Of a stretch of 64,000 nt of DNA, positions 16,044 to 58,961 are shown piece after piece. The notes under the pieces are model-generated. The model had not been told where the DNA came from. It worked only from the letters and a program-made list of their open reading frames with translations, and made no database searches. The stretch's first letter is position 1, and each line of letters starts with the position of its first letter. A program made the position numbers and the translations under genes. The DNA comes from an uncultured Clostridia bacterium (GTDB lineage: Bacteria; Bacillota; Clostridia; Oscillospirales; Acutalibacteraceae), in the NCBI GenBank assembly GCA_947170465.1, contig CAMVTS010000003.1:1-64000 (forward strand), in the 5' to 3' direction.

Positions 16044-16943
16044 ATGGATTCTCTCTTTTTGCCCGATTGCCGCCACCGGGAACAGTTTTTGCGGCGGTTC
16101 TCACCGGCTGTCCGTCAGTATATCGGCAGGAGCATTTGCCGCCGTCCGATAGACGCGCTGCGGCTGGGCTGCGGCGAGCCGCGCGTCTTAATCGCCGCCG
16201 GCTTTCACGGCACGGAGTACCTCACCGTGCTGGCGGCTTTACAGTTTGCTATGGAATACGCCGGAAATCCCCGAAATGAGGTCTGGCTCGTGCCCTGCGT
16301 CAATCCCGACGGCACGGAAATCGCCCTTCACGGCTGTGAGAGCGCCGGAAAACGCACGGACTGCGTGCAGCGCATCTGCGCCGACCAAAATAAATGGCAG
16401 GCAAACGCGCGCGGCGTGGATATCAACCACAATTTTGACGCGTGCTGGGAGCAGGTGCGCCAAAGGGAACGCGCCATGGGCATTGACCGCCCGTCCTGTA
16501 CGCGCTTCGGCGGCGCTTTTCCGGAAAGCGAGCCGGAAACGCAGGCGCTCACGCGGCTGTGCCGCCGTTTGCGCTTTGAGCGCGTGCTGGCGCTGCACAG
16601 TCAGGGGCGCGAAATCTACTGGGATTTCGGCGAACACACGCCGTCCTGCTGCCGGACGCTTGCCGGCAAAATGGCGGAGGTCAGCGGCTACACGGTCGCC
16701 AGTCCGGAGCCGATTGCCACGGGCGGCGGCTTCAAGGACTGGTTTATTCAGTGCTTTCACCGGTGCGGCTATACGGTTGAAATGGGATTCGGAGAAAACC
16801 CCCTGCCGCTGTCGGATTTTCCGGAGGAATACCCGAGGGTGAGGGAGCTTCTGCGTGTATTTGTTAAGGCAATACCGCATAATTCAGGTGTGCGGATTGC
16901 GCAGCAAGATTTTTCGTCAGGTTGTACAAATAAATCAAGGTAA
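16044..16943 (+). CDS. M14 family zinc carboxypeptidase
   Basis: AAGFHGTEYLTV (HxxE) and GVDINHNFDACW; last ~21 residues are encoded by an inserted repeat. Confidence 0.85.
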   Translation: MDSLFLPDCRHREQFLRRFSPAVRQYIGRSICRRPIDALRLGCGEPRVLIAAGFHGTEYLTVLAALQFAMEYAGNPRNEVWLVPCVNPDGTEIALHGCESAGKRTDCVQRICADQNKWQANARGVDINHNFDACWEQVRQRERAMGIDRPSCTRFGGAFPESEPETQALTRLCRRLRFERVLALHSQGREIYWDFGEHTPSCCRTLAGKMAEVSGYTVASPEPIATGGGFKDWFIQCFHRCGYTVEMGFGENPLPLSDFPEEYPRVRELLRVFVKAIPHNSGVRIAQQDFSSGCTNKSR

Positions 16944-17028
16944 GGCTGACGCCTTGCCGAGATTTTTTGGGCAAGCTGACGGAATAATATTCAAGCAAGC
17001 CGTGCGCCTTGAATTGTGCGGTGTTGCC
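16868..17028. mobile_element. 161-bp MITE-like repeat, family 3, copy 1 (flanked by TTAA)
   Basis: TIRs GGCAATACCGCATAATTC.../...GAATTGTGCGGTGTTGCC with TTAA on both sides; second copy at 44247-44407 has the same length. Confidence 0.8.
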
Positions 17029-17035
17029 TTAAGGG

Positions 17036-19327
17036 TTAATTCTCGTCGTCGCTGAAAAATGAAATCTGGCTGACGATATTGTCAACCGCTTCGTCGGAAA
17101 TGACGTTCGGCTCGTCGAGGTACTTGGAGCGCTTTTCAATGCTGTCGAGCGCGTGCTGCATTTCCTCCCGGGGCGTCAGCGGACGCGGCGGCTGCTGATA
17201 GGTTTCCTCGCTCTGCGGATTCTGAATATCGACGTATTCCTCCGCGGCAGGCTGTTCTGGCACAGCAGGCTCCTCCTCGTTTTCTATCAGGGCAGGCATA
17301 CTGCCGTCGTCAGGCTGTTCTTCGGCGGCTGGCTGGCTCTTGTCCACGCCGAAATCGGGCGCGTCATATTCCTCGTCGATTTCCTCGGCGGCTGCCATAA
17401 TGACCTCGCCGGGCGCGTCAATCTGCTTTTCGCGGCGCGCTTCGGCGACCGCCCGCAGCTCCTCTAAGTGATTGACGGGTTTTTCGACCTTGGGATTCTT
17501 CTCGTCAAAATAGATGTCGTACCACACCAGGAACACATAGACTGTCCAGACGCGGCGGCTGTTGTCCTCCTTGCCGCTGTAGTGCTCGTCGAGCCAGCTC
17601 ACCAGCGCTTCGGTATTGAAGAACTTCTGCGCGGTTTCGCCCAGGAACTTCTTGCGGACAATATTGTAATATTTCTCGTCGCGCAGCCATACCCTGGTCG
17701 GCACCGGAAAACCGAGCTTTTCCTTCTCGGCGGTTTCTTCGGGAAGGTATCCGGCGGCAGCCTTGCGCATGGCGTACTTGGTATTCTGCTTGTTGACGCG
17801 CAGCTCGGACGGCAGTCTGGAAGCAATCTTGAACACCTCTTTGTCAAGGAAGGGCACGCGCAGCTCCAGCGAATTCGCCATGCTCATGCGGTCGGCTTTC
17901 AGGAGAATATCGCCGACCATCCACATGTTGATGTCGAGATACTGCATTTTTGTCACGTCGTCCAGACGGCGGCAGCGGTAGTAGTATTTTTTGGAGTGGG
18001 TATAAGGCTCCGTCGCAATGGACGGGTCTTTGAGAATCGCGCGTTTTTCGCGCAAATCATACATATAGGCGTTGCCGATATAGCGCTCCTCCAGCGGGTC
18101 GCAGGCACGGATTAAATAATCCCTGCCCTTGATGTCGGGCAGCTTGCGGCAGACGGCGCGGATTGCCTTGCGCAGGAAATGCGGCACAATCTTCTGGTAC
18201 ATGCGGAACACGCGCGGGTCGTTGTAGCAGGTGTAGCCGCCAAAGAGCTCGTCGGCGCCCTCGCCGGAGAGCACCACCTTGACATACTGGCTGGCAAGGC
18301 GCGAGACAAAGTACAGCGCGACGCAGGACGGGTCGGCAAGCGGCTGATCCATGTGGTACTGCACCGTGGGCACCGCGTCCCAGAACTCCTCGCTGGAAAT
18401 CAGGTGCGTGTAGTGCTTCACGCCGAGCTTTTCGCTGAGTCCCTCCGCCCAGCTAATTTCGTTGTATTTCTCGCCGAAGTCAAAGCCGACGGTGAAGGTT
18501 TTCTGGTCGGCAAAAAAGGCGGAAACATAGCTGGAATCCACGCCGGAGGACAAGAAGCAGCCGACCTCGACGTCAGCGATTTTATGGGCGCTGACGGAAT
18601 CGGTAAACGCCTTGTCAATCGCGGCAACCGCTTCTTCCTCGGTCATATTCTCGTCGGGCTGGAAGCGCGCCTCAAAATAGCGCGTCGTCTCAACCAGACC
18701 GTCGCGGTACCAGAGATAATGACCGGGCATGAGGCAGAACACATCCTCAAAGAAGGTCTCCGGCGGCACGGCGTACTGGAAGGACAGGTAGGTATCCAGT
18801 GCGCGCTTGTTGAAGCGCTTGACAAATTTCGGGTGCTCCAGGATACTCTTGATTTCACTCGCCCATACGAACTCGCCCTCAATCTGGGTGTAGTGCAGGG
18901 GCTTGATGCCGAAGAAATCACGCGCCAGAAAGACGGACTTGTCCACGGTGTTGTAAATCGCGAAGGCGAACATGCCGCGCAGACGCGTCAGCAAATCCTC
19001 GCGCCATTCCTCAAAGCCGTGCACCAGCACCTCGCTGTCGGAATCGGTCGTGAATTGATGACCGCGCCGGATCAGCTCGCGGCGCAAATCCTTGTAGTTA
19101 TAAATCTCTCCGTTGAAGGTGAGGACAAGCGTTTTGTCCTCGTTGTAAATCGGCTGATGACCTGCCTCCAGGTCAATGATGGACAGGCGGCGGAAGCCCA
19201 TATTCACGGTATCGTCCATGAACATGCCGTCGGAATCAGGTCCGCGGTGGGTGATGACCTCCGTCATTTTTTTCAATACGTCCTCACGGTTTTCCAGCTG
19301 ACCGGTAAAGCCGCAGATACCACACAT
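17036..19327 (-). CDS. asnB: Asparagine synthase (glutamine-hydrolyzing) with an acidic C-terminal extension
   Basis: MCGICGFTG class II amidotransferase start, SGVDSSYV PP-loop; ~140-aa Glu/Pro-rich tail. Confidence 0.93.
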   Translation of the reverse strand: MCGICGFTGQLENREDVLKKMTEVITHRGPDSDGMFMDDTVNMGFRRLSIIDLEAGHQPIYNEDKTLVLTFNGEIYNYKDLRRELIRRGHQFTTDSDSEVLVHGFEEWREDLLTRLRGMFAFAIYNTVDKSVFLARDFFGIKPLHYTQIEGEFVWASEIKSILEHPKFVKRFNKRALDTYLSFQYAVPPETFFEDVFCLMPGHYLWYRDGLVETTRYFEARFQPDENMTEEEAVAAIDKAFTDSVSAHKIADVEVGCFLSSGVDSSYVSAFFADQKTFTVGFDFGEKYNEISWAEGLSEKLGVKHYTHLISSEEFWDAVPTVQYHMDQPLADPSCVALYFVSRLASQYVKVVLSGEGADELFGGYTCYNDPRVFRMYQKIVPHFLRKAIRAVCRKLPDIKGRDYLIRACDPLEERYIGNAYMYDLREKRAILKDPSIATEPYTHSKKYYYRCRRLDDVTKMQYLDINMWMVGDILLKADRMSMANSLELRVPFLDKEVFKIASRLPSELRVNKQNTKYAMRKAAAGYLPEETAEKEKLGFPVPTRVWLRDEKYYNIVRKKFLGETAQKFFNTEALVSWLDEHYSGKEDNSRRVWTVYVFLVWYDIYFDEKNPKVEKPVNHLEELRAVAEARREKQIDAPGEVIMAAAEEIDEEYDAPDFGVDKSQPAAEEQPDDGSMPALIENEEEPAVPEQPAAEEYVDIQNPQSEETYQQPPRPLTPREEMQHALDSIEKRSKYLDEPNVISDEAVDNIVSQISFFSDDEN

Positions 19328-21478: not shown

Positions 21479-21746
21479 AGGCTGGCTCCAAGAGCCAGCC
21501 CCAGTTTGTCGAAAAACGAATATTTAAAAAAGAAAAATGGCAGAATTTTAGGTTATGCGGTAGGGGCGGACCCATGTGTCCGCCCGAGCTGCGTTTTCCT
21601 ATCTAACCATATCTGCCGTGGAAACGTACGGTTTCCTATCCCGGGCGCACACGCGGGTGCGCCCCTACGATTTTGTCATACTTTATCCTGTAAAAACAAC
21701 ATTTGGACTTTTTCTACAGTCTGAGGCTGGCTCCAAGAGCCAGCCC
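21479..21746. repeat. Terminator-duplicating repeat, family 1, copy 1 (element 21502-21723 plus flanking hairpin duplicates)
   Basis: AGGCTGGCTCCAAGAGCCAGCCC is present at 21479-21501 and again at 21724-21746; the ~222-bp segment between matches the segments at 32663-32884 and 40187-40405. Confidence 0.9.
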
Positions 21747-21782
21747 TTATTTTTTCAATTGCCGCCGTTTTCCAGGCGTTCA

Positions 21783-21939
21783 TACTAATTCCTGATAGAA
21801 AGTAGACTTATATTTTGCGAGGATATTTTTCGCAAGACAAGGCGAAGGACGCGGCAAGGCTGGCGCCTTGCAAGGACGACAACGCAGTATTGCGGAAAAT
21901 AGACCGCAAAGATTGTCTACTTTTTATTAGGTATTAGTA
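21783..21939. mobile_element. 157-bp MITE, family 2, copy A
   Basis: TIR TACTAATTCCTGATAGAAAGTAGAC / GTCTACTTTTTATTAGGTATTAGTA; 3-bp TSD TCA (21780-21782, 21940-21942). Confidence 0.9.
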
Positions 21940-22217
21940 TCAAGCGCCTGCCGGGCAGCTTTCTCGGTTTTGAAAAAATCTTCGACGCTTTTCTCCGGTT
22001 CTATGTAGACCCTCCGATTGTAATAGGAGGACTCTGCCCAGATACCGACACCCTGCTCTGTAAAACAGACCGACATCACCATCAGCTCGTCCAGTGCCGG
22101 ATTGCTGCCGTCAAGCGGCTGAATCACGCGCCAGACGGGTTTGCCAATCTGAAAGAACGACACCATGCGCTCCTTCGGCTCAATGCGGTAGAAGGAAATA
22201 TATTCCTGCTGTTTCAT
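21927..22217 (-). CDS. Hypothetical protein, C-terminus altered by MITE insertion
   Basis: 96 aa; last residues (..ALDTNT) read into the MITE end. Removing the MITE restores ..ALERLENGGN*. Confidence 0.6.
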   Translation of the reverse strand: MKQQEYISFYRIEPKERMVSFFQIGKPVWRVIQPLDGSNPALDELMVMSVCFTEQGVGIWAESSYYNRRVYIEPEKSVEDFFKTEKAARQALDTNT

Positions 22218-31378: not shown

Positions 31379-31497
31379 TTTATTATACTACACTTCCCTC
31401 ATTTTATCAAGACCAAGTGATTGACACCGCACAAAAAATACGGTATACTGGAATGTGCAATTCTCACAAAACAATAAATGTCAAGAGGTTAAATCAT

Positions 31498-32619
31498 ATG
31501 AAATACGATTACCTGATTGTCGGGGCAGGACTGTTCGGCGCGGTATTCGCGCAGCAGGCTGCCGCCAAGGGCAAGCGCGTGCTTGTCGCGGAAAAGCGGG
31601 AGCATATCGCCGGCAATATCTATACCGAGAGCATAGAGGGCGTGAACGTGCACCGCTACGGCGCGCATATCTTCCACACCAACGACAAGCGCGTGTGGCA
31701 GTATATCACGCGTTTTGCGGACTTCAACCGCTACACCAACGCGCCTGTCGCCAACTACAAGGGTGAGCTGTATTCCCTGCCTTTCAACATGTACACCTTC
31801 AACAAGATGTGGGGCGTTATCACGCCGGAGGAAGCGCAGGCGAAAATTGAGGAACAGAAAGCCGCCTCCGGCATTACGGAACCGAAAAACTTAGAGGAAC
31901 AGGCGATTTCGCTGGTTGGCAGGGATATCTACGAAAAGCTCGTCAAGGGCTACACCGAAAAGCAGTGGGGACGTCCGTGCGCGGAGCTGCCGGCGTTCAT
32001 CATCAGGCGGCTGCCGGTGCGCCTGACCTTTGACAACAACTATTTCAACGCGCTGTACCAAGGGATTCCCATTGGCGGCTACACCAAAATGGTTGAGCGT
32101 ATGCTGGAAGGCGCGGACGTGCTGCTCAATACCGATTATCTTGAAGCCAAGGAAAGGCTGGACAGCTGCGCTGATAAGGTGATTTACACCGGCGCGATTG
32201 ACGCGTATTTCGGCTATCAGCTCGGTCATTTGCAGTACCGCTCCGTGCGTTTTGAGACGGAGGTGCTCGACAAACCGAATTTTCAGGGCAACGCCGTGGT
32301 GAATTACACTGACAGGGAAACGCCGTTCACCAGAATCATTGAGCACAAGTGGTTTGAGTTCGGCAAGGACGAAAACGGCAGGGATTTGCCCAAAACCGTC
32401 ATCAGCCGCGAGTTCAGCTCCGAATGGCAGCCCGGCGGCGAGCCGTATTATCCGGTCAACAACGCAGAAAACACGGCGCTGTACCGGCGATACAAGGCGC
32501 TCGCCGACAAGGACGGCAAGGTGCTGTTCGGCGGACGGCTGGGAGAATACCAATACTACGATATGGACGTGACAATTGCCGCCGCGCTGGATTTGGCGGA
32601 ACGAATTGTCAGTGACTAA
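31498..32619 (+). CDS. glf: UDP-galactopyranose mutase
   Basis: MKYDYLIVGAGLFGAVFAQQAAAKGKRVLV...HRYGAHIFHTND. Confidence 0.95.
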   Translation: MKYDYLIVGAGLFGAVFAQQAAAKGKRVLVAEKREHIAGNIYTESIEGVNVHRYGAHIFHTNDKRVWQYITRFADFNRYTNAPVANYKGELYSLPFNMYTFNKMWGVITPEEAQAKIEEQKAASGITEPKNLEEQAISLVGRDIYEKLVKGYTEKQWGRPCAELPAFIIRRLPVRLTFDNNYFNALYQGIPIGGYTKMVERMLEGADVLLNTDYLEAKERLDSCADKVIYTGAIDAYFGYQLGHLQYRSVRFETEVLDKPNFQGNAVVNYTDRETPFTRIIEHKWFEFGKDENGRDLPKTVISREFSSEWQPGGEPYYPVNNAENTALYRRYKALADKDGKVLFGGRLGEYQYYDMDVTIAAALDLAERIVSD

Positions 32620-32635: not shown

Positions 32636-32912
32636 CGGCTGCCGGAAATCCGGACAGCCGTTAGTTTGTCGAAAAACTATATTTGCAAAAAATAGAATGG
32701 CAAAATATTTGGTTCTGACGTAGGGGCGGACCCATGTGTCCGCCCGAGCTGCGTTTTCCTATCTAACCATATCTGCCGTGGAAACGTACGGTTTCCTATC
32801 CCGGGCGCACACGCGGGTGCGCCCCTACGATTTTGTCATACTTTATCCTGTAAAAACAACATTTAGACTTTTTATACAGTCTGTCGGCTGCCCGGAAATC
32901 CGGACAGCCGTT
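32636..32912. repeat. Terminator-duplicating repeat, family 1, copy 2
   Basis: CGGCTGCCGGAAATCCGGACAGCCGTT at 32636-32662 and CGGCTGCCCGGAAATCCGGACAGCCGTT at 32885-32912 flank the ~220-bp family-1 core. Confidence 0.9.
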
Positions 32913-32944: not shown

Positions 32945-35900
32945 TTATACGGTTACTTCGCCTTCGTAGACGGTCTCGGCGTTGCCGGTCATGTAGACGG
33001 TTTCGTCGGTGTAGTTGACAATCAGGTCGCCGCCCTTGAGCTTGACCTTGATGTCCTCGCCCTTCTGACAGAAGCCGTTTTCGCAAGCCGCTACCGCCAC
33101 CGCGCAGGCGCCGGTACCGCAAGCCCAGGTCTCGCCGGAGCCGCGCTCCCAGACGCGCATTTTGATGGTGTGGTCGTTGAGGACGGTGACAAACTCAGTG
33201 TTGACGCGCTCCGGGAAAAGCGGATTATGCTCGAACAGCGGACCGATTTTTTCGAGGTCGATGTGGTCGATGTCGCTGTCAACAAACACCACGCAATGGG
33301 GATTTCCCATGGAAACGCAGGTGATGTTGTACTCCTTGTCACCGATGGTGACGGTTCTGTCAACAACCTTTTCGCCGCTGAGCTTCACGGGAATCTGCTT
33401 CGGGTCAAGAACCGCCTTGCCCATATCGACGCGCAGGGTGGTGACCTCGCCGTCAGTGGTGTATGCCTTCAGCTTCTTGATGCCGCTGAGGGTTTCGATG
33501 GTGATTTCGTCCTTTTCCTTGATGTCCACCATGCCGTGGTCATAGAGGAACTTGCCGACGCAGCGGATACCGTTGCCGCACATCTGACCCTCTGAGCCGT
33601 CGCGGTTGTACATCTTCATCTGCGCGTCAGCGACCTTGGAGGGCGCGACGAGAATCACGCCGTCAGCGCCTACGCCGAAATGACGGTCACTCAGACGGAC
33701 AGCCAGCGCCTCGGGGTTGTTAATCCACTGACCGAAGGTGGAGAAGTAGATATAGTCGTTGCCGATACCCTGCATTTTGGTGAATTTCAGCTTGACCTTA
33801 CTATCGCGCATCCGGTTGATGTCGACAAGCTCGGTGCTCTGCTGGGAATAGCGGCTGCGCAGGCAATCCGCGAGCGCGTTGGCGGTGTCGAGAGAGGTCA
33901 GGCAGGGAATGTTTCTCTCAACGGTCTTGCGGCGGATTTTAACGGAATCGCGGGAGGGAATTCTGCCCTTCGCGGAGGTGGAAATCACGTACTGAATCTT
34001 GCCGCTTTCAATCAGGGCGAGGGTGTTGTTGTGCTCGTCCTCGTGAATCTTGGGCACGTTCACAGCGTCAATGCCGTACTTCCTGAGCACCTTGGCGGTA
34101 CCGTTGGTGGCGTACAGCTTGAAGCCGAGGTCGTAGTACTTCTTGGCAATCTCGCCGATTTCCGCCTTGTCGGAATCACGGACGGTGATGAACACGCCGC
34201 CCTTCTTCTTCATCTTGTAGCCGGCGGCAATCAGGCCCTTGTAGAGCGCTTCCTCCAGCGTGCCGGCAATACCGAGCACCTCGCCGGTGGACTTCATCTC
34301 GGGACCGAGGTGGTTATCGACGTTAATCAGCTTTTCAAAGCTGAATACCGGCACCTTGACCGCGATATAGGGGCTCTTTCTGTAGAGACCGGTGCCGTAG
34401 CCCATGTCGGCAAGGCGCTCGCCGAGCATGGCTCTGGTAGCGAGGTCAACCATGGGAACGCCGGTGACCTTGCTGATATAGGGAATGGTACGCGAGGAAC
34501 GCGGATTGACCTCGATAACGTACAACTCGTTGTTGTAGATGAGGTACTGGATATTGACAAGACCCTTGGTGCGCAGGTCAATTGCCAGGTTGCGCGAGCT
34601 GGTGACGATAGTCTCGGTCATCTCGTCGGAGATGTTCCACGCCGGATAGACCGCAATCGAGTCTCCGGAGTGAACGCCGGCGCGCTCAACGTGCTCCATG
34701 ATACCGGGAATGAGGATATCCTCGCCGTCGCAGATAGCGTCCACCTCAATCTCGGTGCCCTGTAAGTATTTATCAATCAGAATCGGGTTTTCAATGTTCT
34801 GTGCCAGGATAATCGCCATGTACTCCCTGACGTCCGCCTCGTTGAAGGCGATAATCATGTTCTGACCGCCGAGCACGTAGGACGGACGGAGCAGAACGGG
34901 ATAGCCGATGGACTCCGCCACGTCGAGGGCTTCCTCGGTCGTCATGACGGTCACGCCCTTCGGGCGCTTGATGTGGTACTTCTCGAGCAGTTCGTCAAAG
35001 CGCTCTCTGTCCTCCGCCATGTCAATCGCGTCGTAGGAGGTACCGAGGATATTGACGTTGTTGTCGCTGAGGAACTTGGTCAGCTTGATAGCGGTCTGAC
35101 CGCCGAAGGCAACGACCACGCCGTAGGGATTCTCGGTCTTGATAATACCCATGACGTCCTCGGTAGTGAGGGGTTCAAAGTAGAGTCTGTCGGCGGTGTC
35201 AAAGTCGGTGGAAACCGTCTCGGGGTTGTTGTTGACGATAACCACGTCGTAGCCTGCCTTTTTCAGCGCCCATACGCAGTGAACGGAGGCGTAGTCGAAC
35301 TCGATGCCCTGACCGATACGGATAGGACCGGAGCCGAATACGATGATGGTCTTTTTGTCGCTCTTTCTCTCGGCGATAAACTCCTCCGCCTCGTTCTCCT
35401 TATCGAAGGTGGAATAGAAGTAAGGCGTCTCGGCGGCGAACTCAGCCGCGCAGGTGTCAACCATCTTGTAAACCGGGGTGAGCGGATTCTTGATTTCGCA
35501 GCCGGACAGCTCGACGATGGTCTTGTCGAGGAAGCCGGTCTTTTTGGCGGTCATGTACAGCTCGTCGGTCAGCTCGCCCTTTTTGAGGGCTTCGGTGACG
35601 TTGATGATGTTCTGCATTTTGTAGAGGAACCACTCGTCAATCATGGTGATGTCGTGGATTTTCTCTACGGAAATGCCGCGCTTGAGGGCTTCGTACACGC
35701 AGAAAATTCTTCTGTCGTCGCAGACGCTCAGGCGGTCGGCGACAGAGGCGTTGGAGAGCTGCTCAAACTCCTTGTCGTCGAGGGTGTTGTGGGAGATTTC
35801 AGCGCCGCGGACAGCCTTCATAATCGCCTGCTCAAAGGTCGGCGCAATCGCCATGACCTCGCCGGTCGCCTTCATCTGGGTGCCGAGTTCACGCTTGGCG

Positions 35901-37000
35901 TATACAAATTTATCGAAAGGCCATTTCGGGAACTTGACGACCACGTAGTCGATAGACGGCTCAAAGCAGGCGTAGGTCGTACCCGTTACGGCGTTCTTGA
36001 TTTCGTCGAGGTTGTAGCCGATAGCGATTTTCGCCGCTACCTTGGCAATGGGATAGCCGGTCGCCTTGGAAGCGAGGGCTGAGGAGCGCGATACACGGGG
36101 GTTGACCTCGATAACCGCGTATTCAAAGGACTCCGGATTGAGGGCAAACTGGCAGTTGCAGCCGCCTTCTACCTTCAGCGCGGAGATGATGTCAAGCGCC
36201 GCGGAACGGAGCATCTGATATTCCTTGTCGGAGAGGGTGACGGTCGGCGCGATAACGATGGAGTCGCCGGTGTGAACGCCGACGGGGTCAAAGTTCTCCA
36301 TGGAGCAAATCGTGATAACGTTGCCGGCGGAGTCGCGCATGACCTCGAACTCGATTTCCTTCCAGCCGGAGATGCACTTCTCAACCAATACCTGGGTAAT
36401 CGGCGAAAGCTCCAGACCGTTGGAGGTGATTTCGCGCAGCTCCTCCTCGTCGTTGACGATACCGCCGCCGGTGCCGCCGAGGGTAAACGCCGGACGGATA
36501 ATCACCGGATAGCCGATTTCCTCGGCAAAGGCAACCGCGGATTCCACATCGTTGACGACGGTAGACGGAATACAGGGCTGGTTGATGGACTCCATGGTGT
36601 CCTTGAAGAGCTGTCTGTCCTCTGCCTTATCAATGGTTTCGGGATTGGCGCCGAGGAGCTGAACGCCGTGCTTTTCGAGAAAGCCTTCCTTGGCGAGCTG
36701 CATGGAGAGCGTCAGACCGGTCTGACCGCCGAGGGTGGAGAGCAGGCTGTCGGGCTTCTCCTTGATGATAATGCGCTTCACTGTTTCGAGGGTAAGCGGT
36801 TCAATGTAGATTTTATCCGCCATGGCGTTGTCGGTCATGATGGTCGCGGGGTTGGAGTTGACGAGGATAACCTCCAGTCCTTCCTCCTTGAGCGCACGGC
36901 ACGCCTGGGTGCCGGCGTAGTCAAATTCGGCAGCCTGTCCGATGACGATAGGACCGGAGCCGATAACCATTACTCGTTTGATATCCTTTTTCAGTGGCAT
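32945..37000 (-). CDS. Fused carbamoyl-phosphate synthase large subunit / diaminopimelate epimerase
   Basis: 1351 aa continuous ORF: CarB domains to ~...LADCLRSRYSQQSTELVDINRMRDSKVK, then DapF (LKFTKMQGIGNDYIYF...GNGIRCVGKF...ACGTGACAVA). Confidence 0.92.
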   Translation of the reverse strand: MPLKKDIKRVMVIGSGPIVIGQAAEFDYAGTQACRALKEEGLEVILVNSNPATIMTDNAMADKIYIEPLTLETVKRIIIKEKPDSLLSTLGGQTGLTLSMQLAKEGFLEKHGVQLLGANPETIDKAEDRQLFKDTMESINQPCIPSTVVNDVESAVAFAEEIGYPVIIRPAFTLGGTGGGIVNDEEELREITSNGLELSPITQVLVEKCISGWKEIEFEVMRDSAGNVITICSMENFDPVGVHTGDSIVIAPTVTLSDKEYQMLRSAALDIISALKVEGGCNCQFALNPESFEYAVIEVNPRVSRSSALASKATGYPIAKVAAKIAIGYNLDEIKNAVTGTTYACFEPSIDYVVVKFPKWPFDKFVYAKRELGTQMKATGEVMAIAPTFEQAIMKAVRGAEISHNTLDDKEFEQLSNASVADRLSVCDDRRIFCVYEALKRGISVEKIHDITMIDEWFLYKMQNIINVTEALKKGELTDELYMTAKKTGFLDKTIVELSGCEIKNPLTPVYKMVDTCAAEFAAETPYFYSTFDKENEAEEFIAERKSDKKTIIVFGSGPIRIGQGIEFDYASVHCVWALKKAGYDVVIVNNNPETVSTDFDTADRLYFEPLTTEDVMGIIKTENPYGVVVAFGGQTAIKLTKFLSDNNVNILGTSYDAIDMAEDRERFDELLEKYHIKRPKGVTVMTTEEALDVAESIGYPVLLRPSYVLGGQNMIIAFNEADVREYMAIILAQNIENPILIDKYLQGTEIEVDAICDGEDILIPGIMEHVERAGVHSGDSIAVYPAWNISDEMTETIVTSSRNLAIDLRTKGLVNIQYLIYNNELYVIEVNPRSSRTIPYISKVTGVPMVDLATRAMLGERLADMGYGTGLYRKSPYIAVKVPVFSFEKLINVDNHLGPEMKSTGEVLGIAGTLEEALYKGLIAAGYKMKKKGGVFITVRDSDKAEIGEIAKKYYDLGFKLYATNGTAKVLRKYGIDAVNVPKIHEDEHNNTLALIESGKIQYVISTSAKGRIPSRDSVKIRRKTVERNIPCLTSLDTANALADCLRSRYSQQSTELVDINRMRDSKVKLKFTKMQGIGNDYIYFSTFGQWINNPEALAVRLSDRHFGVGADGVILVAPSKVADAQMKMYNRDGSEGQMCGNGIRCVGKFLYDHGMVDIKEKDEITIETLSGIKKLKAYTTDGEVTTLRVDMGKAVLDPKQIPVKLSGEKVVDRTVTIGDKEYNITCVSMGNPHCVVFVDSDIDHIDLEKIGPLFEHNPLFPERVNTEFVTVLNDHTIKMRVWERGSGETWACGTGACAVAVAACENGFCQKGEDIKVKLKGGDLIVNYTDETVYMTGNAETVYEGEVTV

Positions 37001-40158: not shown

Positions 40159-40433
40159 AGAGGGTTTGGCACATAGCCGAACCCTCAGACTGTAGAAAAA
40201 GTCTAAATGTTGTTTTTACAGGATAAAGTATGACAAAATCGTAGGGGCGCACCCGCGTGTGCGCCCGGGATAGGAAACCGTACGTTTCCACGGCAGATAT
40301 GGTTAGATAGGAAAACGCAGCTCGGGCGGACACATGGGTCCGCCCCTACGTCAGAACCTAATATTTTGCCATTCTATTTTTTGCAAATATAGTTTTTCGA
40401 CAAACAGAGGGTTTGGCACATAGCCGAACCCTC
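40159..40433. repeat. Terminator-duplicating repeat, family 1, copy 3 (inverted orientation)
   Basis: AGAGGGTTTGGCACATAGCCGAACCCTC at 40159-40186 and again at 40406-40433 flank a 219-bp core in reverse orientation. Confidence 0.9.
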
Positions 40434-44231: not shown

Positions 44232-44246
44232 CTCATTCCTCCTTAA

Positions 44247-44407
44247 GGCAATACCGCATAATTTAGGTGTGCGGATTGTGTAGTAAGATTTTTCGTCAGG
44301 TTGGACAAAAAATCGAGGTAAGGCTGACGCCTTGCCGAGACTTTTTTGGGCAACATGACGGAACAATATTCAAGCAAGGCGTGCGCCGCAAATTGTGCGG
44401 TGTTACC
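44247..44407. mobile_element. 161-bp MITE-like repeat, family 3, copy 2 (flanked by TTAA)
   Basis: GGCAATACCGCATAATTT.../...AAATTGTGCGGTGTTACC, TTAA on both sides; strongly similar to 16868-17028. Confidence 0.8.
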
Positions 44408-44429
44408 TTAATGTTTTGTGCCGGCTTTA

Positions 44430-58486: not shown

Positions 58487-58961
58487 TTAAATGATAGATT
58501 GTATATCTCTTTTGCTGTACAGAAATCGTCTGACTTCCATCACATCATCAATGACAACATAAAAAACCGCGTAACTGTTGACGTTAATCCGATAATACGG
58601 AGATTTGCGCTCTCTTTCAGAATGGATTGGCTGAAAGGAAAGCGGATTATTCAAGCGCGCGAGAATGGCTTGTTCAGTCAAATCAATCAGTTTCACAGCC
58701 GCCGTCGGATTCTGTAATACTAATTCCTGATAGAAAGTAGACTTATATTTTGCGAGGATATTTTTCGCAAGACAAGGCGAAGGACGCAGCAAGGCTGGCG
58801 CCTTGCAAGGACGACAACGCAGTATTGTGGAAAATAGACCGCAAAGATTGGCTACTTTTTATTAGGTATTAGTATAAGTCCTTGGATATATAATCTACGA
58901 TTTTTGCCATATCCTCATAAAAAATCGGCAAATATCTCAGCTGATACATGCTGTTATCCAT
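58487..58961 (-). pseudogene. RelE/ParE-superfamily toxin gene split by a 157-bp MITE
   Basis: N-terminal part MDNSMYQLRYLPIFYEDMAKIVDYISKDL (58961-58875) and C-terminal part QNPTAAVKLIDLTEQAI...FLYSKRDIQSII (58714-58487) rejoin in frame when the MITE and one TTA duplicate are removed. Confidence 0.88.
58718..58874. mobile_element. 157-bp MITE, family 2, copy B
   Basis: Near-identical to 21783-21939, same length; 3-bp TSD TAA (58715-58717, 58875-58877). Confidence 0.92.

Follow-up and report, generated by a model that had tools for sequence, protein, structure and literature searches.

Hairpin targeting by members of the IS1182 family is known, and variable direct repeats of 0–60 bp are recorded for this family in ISfinder, so individual cases of hairpin duplication may already have been seen by specialists. 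Class C group II introns insert beside terminators as well; we know of no hairpin-length duplications made by group II introns or by REP/BIME repeats that are moved by a RAYT. Palindromic targets were attributed to some IS1182 members, without detailed data, in the review of Siguier et al. (2015), as it is quoted by Wan et al. (2017, PMC5678879). IS1272/TnSha1 of staphylococci, which belong to the same family, enter inverted repeats or terminator hairpins of any sequence and of varied size (PMC5678879, PMC4923244), and Furi et al. (2016, PMC4923244) also found hairpin deletion together with the terminator targets. For IS1272, an attack at the 3′ feet of the hairpin was proposed by Wan et al., beside which an attack at the 5′ feet (pathway b) was drawn as a possibility. 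In a large survey (PMC9208149), IS1182 elements were over-represented between convergent genes, which fits terminator targeting. Beyond the proposed pathway, no whole-hairpin duplication by IS1182 members was found in the open-access papers searched, nor did we find there a duplication length set by the target, a natural empty site or MITE families that exploit whole-hairpin duplication.

The element at positions 32662–32883 of the 64,000-nucleotide stretch of DNA that was analysed (the window), from an uncultured Clostridia bacterium, is a MITE of an IS1182-family insertion sequence (IS), and its whole target hairpin has been duplicated. Its termini, including their left/right asymmetry, match those of IS1182-family members of the same genus, with which it also shares the target and the type of duplication; it differs from them in having no transposase gene. 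IS1272 deletes or replaces the hairpin, wholly or in part, and leaves no duplication behind; the present element retains and doubles it, an outcome that equals pathway b in the model of Wan et al. The features of this locus (copy 2) and of the two other copies in the window are as follows, in the order of their coordinates.

21479–21746, no strand assigned: copy 1, a 23-bp hairpin duplication (21479–21501 and 21724–21746) around the element at 21502–21723
31417–32619, plus strand: glf (UDP-galactopyranose mutase), upstream of the copy 2 terminator, an ORF of 400 aa named from its sequence
32636–32661, no strand assigned: left duplicated target of copy 2, hairpin CGGCTGCCGGAAATCCGGACAGCCG plus T, without one C, read directly
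32662–32883, plus strand: copy 2 element, a non-coding MITE of 222 bp with the CAGnyTG...CAGnCTG termini common to the other copies and to IS1182 elements
32662–32677, plus strand: left terminal inverted repeat of copy 2, TAGTTTGTCGAAAAAC, of the IRL type TGTCGAAAA
32720–32828, no strand assigned: internal GTAG...CTAC palindrome pair, found in the 222-bp length class of the element
32866–32883, minus strand: right terminal inverted repeat of copy 2, CAGACTGTATAAAAAGTC (minus-strand reading), of the IRR type
32885–32911, no strand assigned: right duplicated target of copy 2, hairpin CGGCTGCCCGGAAATCCGGACAGCCG plus T, then a poly-T tail to 32916
32945–37000, minus strand: carB-dapF fused reading frame, an ORF of 1351 aa, converging on the copy 2 terminator
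40161–40432: copy 3, a 25-bp hairpin duplication (40161–40185 and 40408–40432) around the element at 40186–40407, which is in minus orientation

The left hairpin of copy 2 occupies 32636–32660 and the right one 32885–32910, the latter being followed by TTTTTT. Read directly, the two are near-identical, CGGCTGCC(C)GGAAATCCGGACAGCCG, and differ by the one C in brackets, which is missing from the left copy, as the initial annotation had reported. Folded alone, the left and right hairpins reach −18.4 and −18.3 kcal/mol, respectively. The duplicated unit consists of the hairpin and one T, 26 bp on the left and 27 bp on the right; of the lengths that had been given earlier, 23 bp stands for copy 1, while the approximate 27 bp for copy 2 is refined to these two values. 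The element, bounded by TAGTTTGTCGAAAAAC and GACTTTTTATACAGTCTG, most likely begins with the second T that had been counted in the left unit. Termini in the other copies read TAGTTTGTCG...CTACAGTCTG, where copy 2 has TATACAGTCTG instead. Its left repeat differs only in the outermost base from the IRL of a same-genus IS at locus L059 (CAGTTTGTCGAAAA), and its right repeat is one base off the usual CAGACTGTAGAAAAAGTC, the IRR of the same-genus IS at locus L060 being CAGACTGTAGAAAA. The common core, which had been described as about 220 bp long, was recovered at about 222 bp, with 92–99% identity to the window copies at 21503 and 40186. All three window copies sit between convergent genes and each of them duplicates a different hairpin; at copy 2, glf on the plus strand faces carB-dapF on the minus strand, in agreement with the initial annotation. 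The carB-dapF frame joins the large subunit of carbamoyl-phosphate synthase to diaminopimelate epimerase, and in nearly all of the 29 related loci that were read its junction, ...STELVDINRMRDSKVKLKFTKMQGIGNDY, is conserved and open.

The host draft genome (2.9 Mb, 191 contigs) holds about 20 copies of the element family, which are short and without a transposase gene. The core gave 24 matches of any length, some of them fragments, and the end motif TTTTTCnACArnCT gave 55 matches, compared with 6 for the reversed control. The family falls into several length classes with common ends (about 200, 222 and 437 bp, and others), which span about 200–440 bp and differ in their interiors. The genome-wide look at the flanks that had been proposed for these copies supported the hairpin reading, as a complete hairpin (stem score of at least 7) adjoins 50 of the 54 element ends that had enough flank, compared with 2.7% of random window positions. 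The hairpins of different host loci are unrelated in sequence, yet they match left to right within a locus, and clear duplications of 20–28 bp were detected by the ungapped script in 15 of the 19 host copies tested, copy 2 being left out of this count because of its 1-base indel. Tandem element-hairpin-element arrays were found at contigs C69 and C73 and are to be expected if the duplicated hairpin remains a target. At contigs C112 (locus L002) and C160 (locus L097), the left and right hairpins show paired differences in their two arms, and unlike hairpins may have been brought together in these own-genome pairs; at another locus, L180, the hairpin loop is reverse-complemented between left and right (GA versus TC). 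The paired arm changes and the loop flip suggest template switching within hairpins, inversion, or the joining of unlike hairpins.

The search of the host draft genome returned no intact IS1182 transposase, only a decayed IS1182-family fragment without the MITE ends; a repeated IS may have stayed unassembled in this 191-contig draft. Genomes of the same genus contain full ISs of about 1.6 kb with MITE-matching ends, also inserted in hairpins, and the ISs of the same genus and of the same order have CAGnyTGTnGAAAA ends. The transposases from the same genus and from one same-order relative scored 386–471 bits against NF033551, at a cut-off of 270 bits, and the three that were tested all match PF13751, PF05598 and PF01609. 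In the closest ISs, the transposase-proximal end is TGTCGAAAA and the distal end is TGTAGAAAA; the MITE ends CAGTTTGTCGAAAA and CAGACTGTAGAAAA equal the IRL of L059 and the IRR of L060, respectively, with the C/A asymmetry kept. Whole-hairpin duplication was found at the ISs of loci L056, L058 and L060, and likewise at L062, where the loop is changed, and target choice is the same for the MITE and for its partner IS, namely hairpins with dyad-centred duplications. An AlphaFold2 model of the transposase (pLDDT 80) had Tn5, mariner and piggyBac-type folds as its nearest neighbours, with no match at E ≤ 0.001, and the structure therefore says nothing on target choice.

Eighty related IS loci were found and 75 loci were analysed, with L056 from an earlier search among them. 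Duplications of 20–41 bp, flush with the termini, were identified in 45 of the 75 and were exactly dyad-centred in 42. Pooled with the 15 insertions from the host's own genome, this makes 60 insertions in which the local terminator hairpin is duplicated, as had been claimed for copy 2, with lengths of 20–41 bp and with exact centring on the dyad in 54. The duplication length is thus far from constant across insertions, and it does track the length of the hairpin, as the initial annotation had suspected (r = 0.70, n = 60 pooled, permutation p 5e-5; r = 0.75 with a stricter hairpin measure at 41 IS sites). In most of these 41 sites, the boundary of the duplication falls −1 to +2 bp from the stem foot. 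The duplications are 90% self-complementary (27% when shuffled), and they begin with A in 46 of the 60 and end with T in 51; the targets have no common sequence, their mean ungapped identity being 0.40. Chakrabartyella piscis, whose chromosome is complete, has near-identical IS copies of 1483–1484 bp that are flanked by exact duplications of 20, 22, 22, 23, 23, 25 and 31 bp, and therefore the enzyme alone does not set the length. Variable hairpin duplication was also found at ISs of Desulfosporosinus, Peribacillus and Sporosarcina (about 48–52% transposase identity), as well as at an IS copy in a Streptococcus phage (L244), which sits in a short hairpin and has a repeat of 18 bp.

Taken with the partner elements of the same genus, these data make it very probable that the MITE is mobilised in trans by a DDE transposase of the IS1182 family like those of that genus, with joining at the 5′ feet and copying of the hairpin on both sides. 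The transposase would join the element to the two strands of the palindrome at the feet of the stem, one strand per foot, and gap repair would then copy the whole hairpin on both sides. Presumably the target is extruded as a cruciform or folded in an equivalent way, and both 5′ feet, 20–41 bp apart in linear DNA, would then come to lie side by side at a four-way junction; given such a junction, a fixed spacing of the active sites could cut both feet whatever the stem length. Each insertion would leave two targets where one had been. The insertions are specific for hairpins but not for sequence, their duplications are dyad-centred and vary in length, and one natural empty site was observed (see below); from this we infer that the transposase recognises its target in the form of an extruded cruciform. 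We lean, with some reserve, towards a broader reading, in which a widespread IS1182 clade and its MITEs choose their targets purely by DNA secondary structure, with strand transfer at a four-way junction, a target-programmed duplication of 20–41 bp and a target that doubles itself.

It is possible, if clearly less probable, that the palindrome is not read as a cruciform but as a duplex, by two protomers with a half-site each, or as a single-stranded hairpin at the replication fork or behind RNA polymerase. Supercoiling is needed to extrude stems as short as those of terminators, and the bias of the end bases towards A at the start and T at the end hints at some contact with the local sequence, but the low mean identity of the targets and the spacings of 20–41 bp speak against a double-stranded footprint of fixed size. 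Far less can be said for an ordinary transposon with a fixed stagger that prefers palindromic surroundings. Duplications of fixed length are usual for DDE transposases, and for one Paracoccus member of the IS1182 family the duplication column of a published list gives a value of 4 bp (PMC3281130); however, the exact duplications of 20–31 bp among the near-identical ISs of one complete genome, together with the dyad-centred interval in 54 of the 60 insertions, leave this explanation with very little probability.

The natural empty site lies in the terminator of the fructose-bisphosphate aldolase gene (fba). In genome G006 (locus L060), the IS is inserted in this terminator between two identical copies of AGGCTGTCGCATAAGCGACAGCCT, and the T-tract is present only beyond the right-hand copy, which is expected if the hairpin alone was duplicated. 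In a related species (genome G121, locus L246), fba is followed by a single hairpin, AAGGCTGTCGCATAAGCGGCAGCCTCTTTTT, without the IS; the two loci are 91% identical over the aligned stretch and belong to different species, not to an isogenic pair. If the hairpins were part of the mobile unit, brought from the donor instead of being duplicated target, nearly every copy would have one at each end, as is indeed the case; yet their sequence and length differ among loci with 97–99% identical cores, they are matched left to right within a locus, and the fba empty site already holds a hairpin, so that we regard such carriage as most improbable.

Relatives have dapF without the element and, where a terminator hairpin is visible, with a single one; this hints, though only faintly given the different neighbouring genes, at an empty site for copy 2. 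The flank of copy 3 was not found in 14 close relatives, for L058 the match to relatives was confined to one of the flanking genes, and no phage with an empty site was found for the phage copy L244.

The script detected no duplication in 30 of the 75 IS loci, some of which are at contig ends; among these script-missed loci, L189 does have a hairpin duplication, with an IS end that differs from the motif. At L140, L141, L145, L151, L153 and L059, two different complete terminator hairpins are present, one per end of the IS, a pattern that would need, and is consistent with, copies that later recombined, a deletion next to the element or misassembled drafts. At locus L241, which is an ISEfa7-like IS1182 element on an Enterococcus faecium plasmid, a hairpin is found on the right side only, and the gene on the other side appears to take its stop codon from the element; this is either a different outcome from that of the present group or a rearranged copy. 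The unlike hairpins that flank several ISs mean that recombination between copies probably occurs. That a segmental or recombinational duplication, or slippage, made the hairpin pair itself, with the element later or incidental, is nevertheless hard to credit, as the duplications are flush with the termini and limited to the hairpin in dozens of unrelated loci and species, and the fba empty site has a single hairpin.

Duplication of the target hairpin by an IS1182-type transposase is likewise to be preferred to a repeat of the REP/BIME type with a Y1 (RAYT) transposase as its mobiliser, or to a terminator-entering group II intron, either of which is scarcely to be believed here. The core does hold GTAG-tagged palindromes like those catalogued in PMC3733652, which start with GTAG, end with CTAC, pair up and also stand alone, but the ends of the element match IS1182 elements, and its duplications belong to the same system. 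The catalogue in PMC3733652 names Proteobacteria, Cyanobacteria, Chloroflexi and the PVC group, not Firmicutes. The Y1 transposase (PF01797) was absent from the host genome, with controls positive in 5 of 14, and RAYT mobilisation was rejected on this basis; no Rfam family reached threshold anywhere in the window, and thus no group II intron RNA structure was found. The internal GTAG palindromes may be a separate repeat that was captured by the element. The GTAG...CTAC palindrome pair is also present alone at C23:4179-4287 and is common in some species of the genus.

Two further repeat families were seen in the window. The first is MITE-like, about 175 bp long, and lies at 16864–17037 and 44243–44416 with inverted ends TTAAGGCAAyACCGCAyAATTC; an end similar to these adjoins the IS1182 copy in locus L199. 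The other one lies at about 21780–21940 and 58717–58875 (98% identical) with inverted ends ATACTAATwCCTrATArAAAGTAGAC, and one of its copies follows copy 1 of the hairpin-duplicating element at a distance of about 35 bp.

At copies 1 and 2, the T-tract stays with the right hairpin and the upstream A-rich side stays with the left one. Beyond the element, convergent transcripts from either side would still find a complete terminator, and the insertion would be nearly harmless because a complete hairpin with its own T-tract remains for both directions. With DDE transposases, it is normally the enzyme that fixes how long the duplication is. In the present insertions the target does so, and this implies that the fold of the DNA is recognised. 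Cruciform extrusion in living cells has been hard to document; the insertions would record it on a genome-wide scale and, if the reading is true, form a large natural dataset for a whole-stem-loop duplication pathway that has so far been hypothetical. Annotation that seeks only short duplications will miss such repeats and ISs. For the elements themselves, a safe-harbour strategy is suggested, as intrinsic terminators are present throughout bacterial genomes and the doubling of the hairpin should keep termination in both directions.
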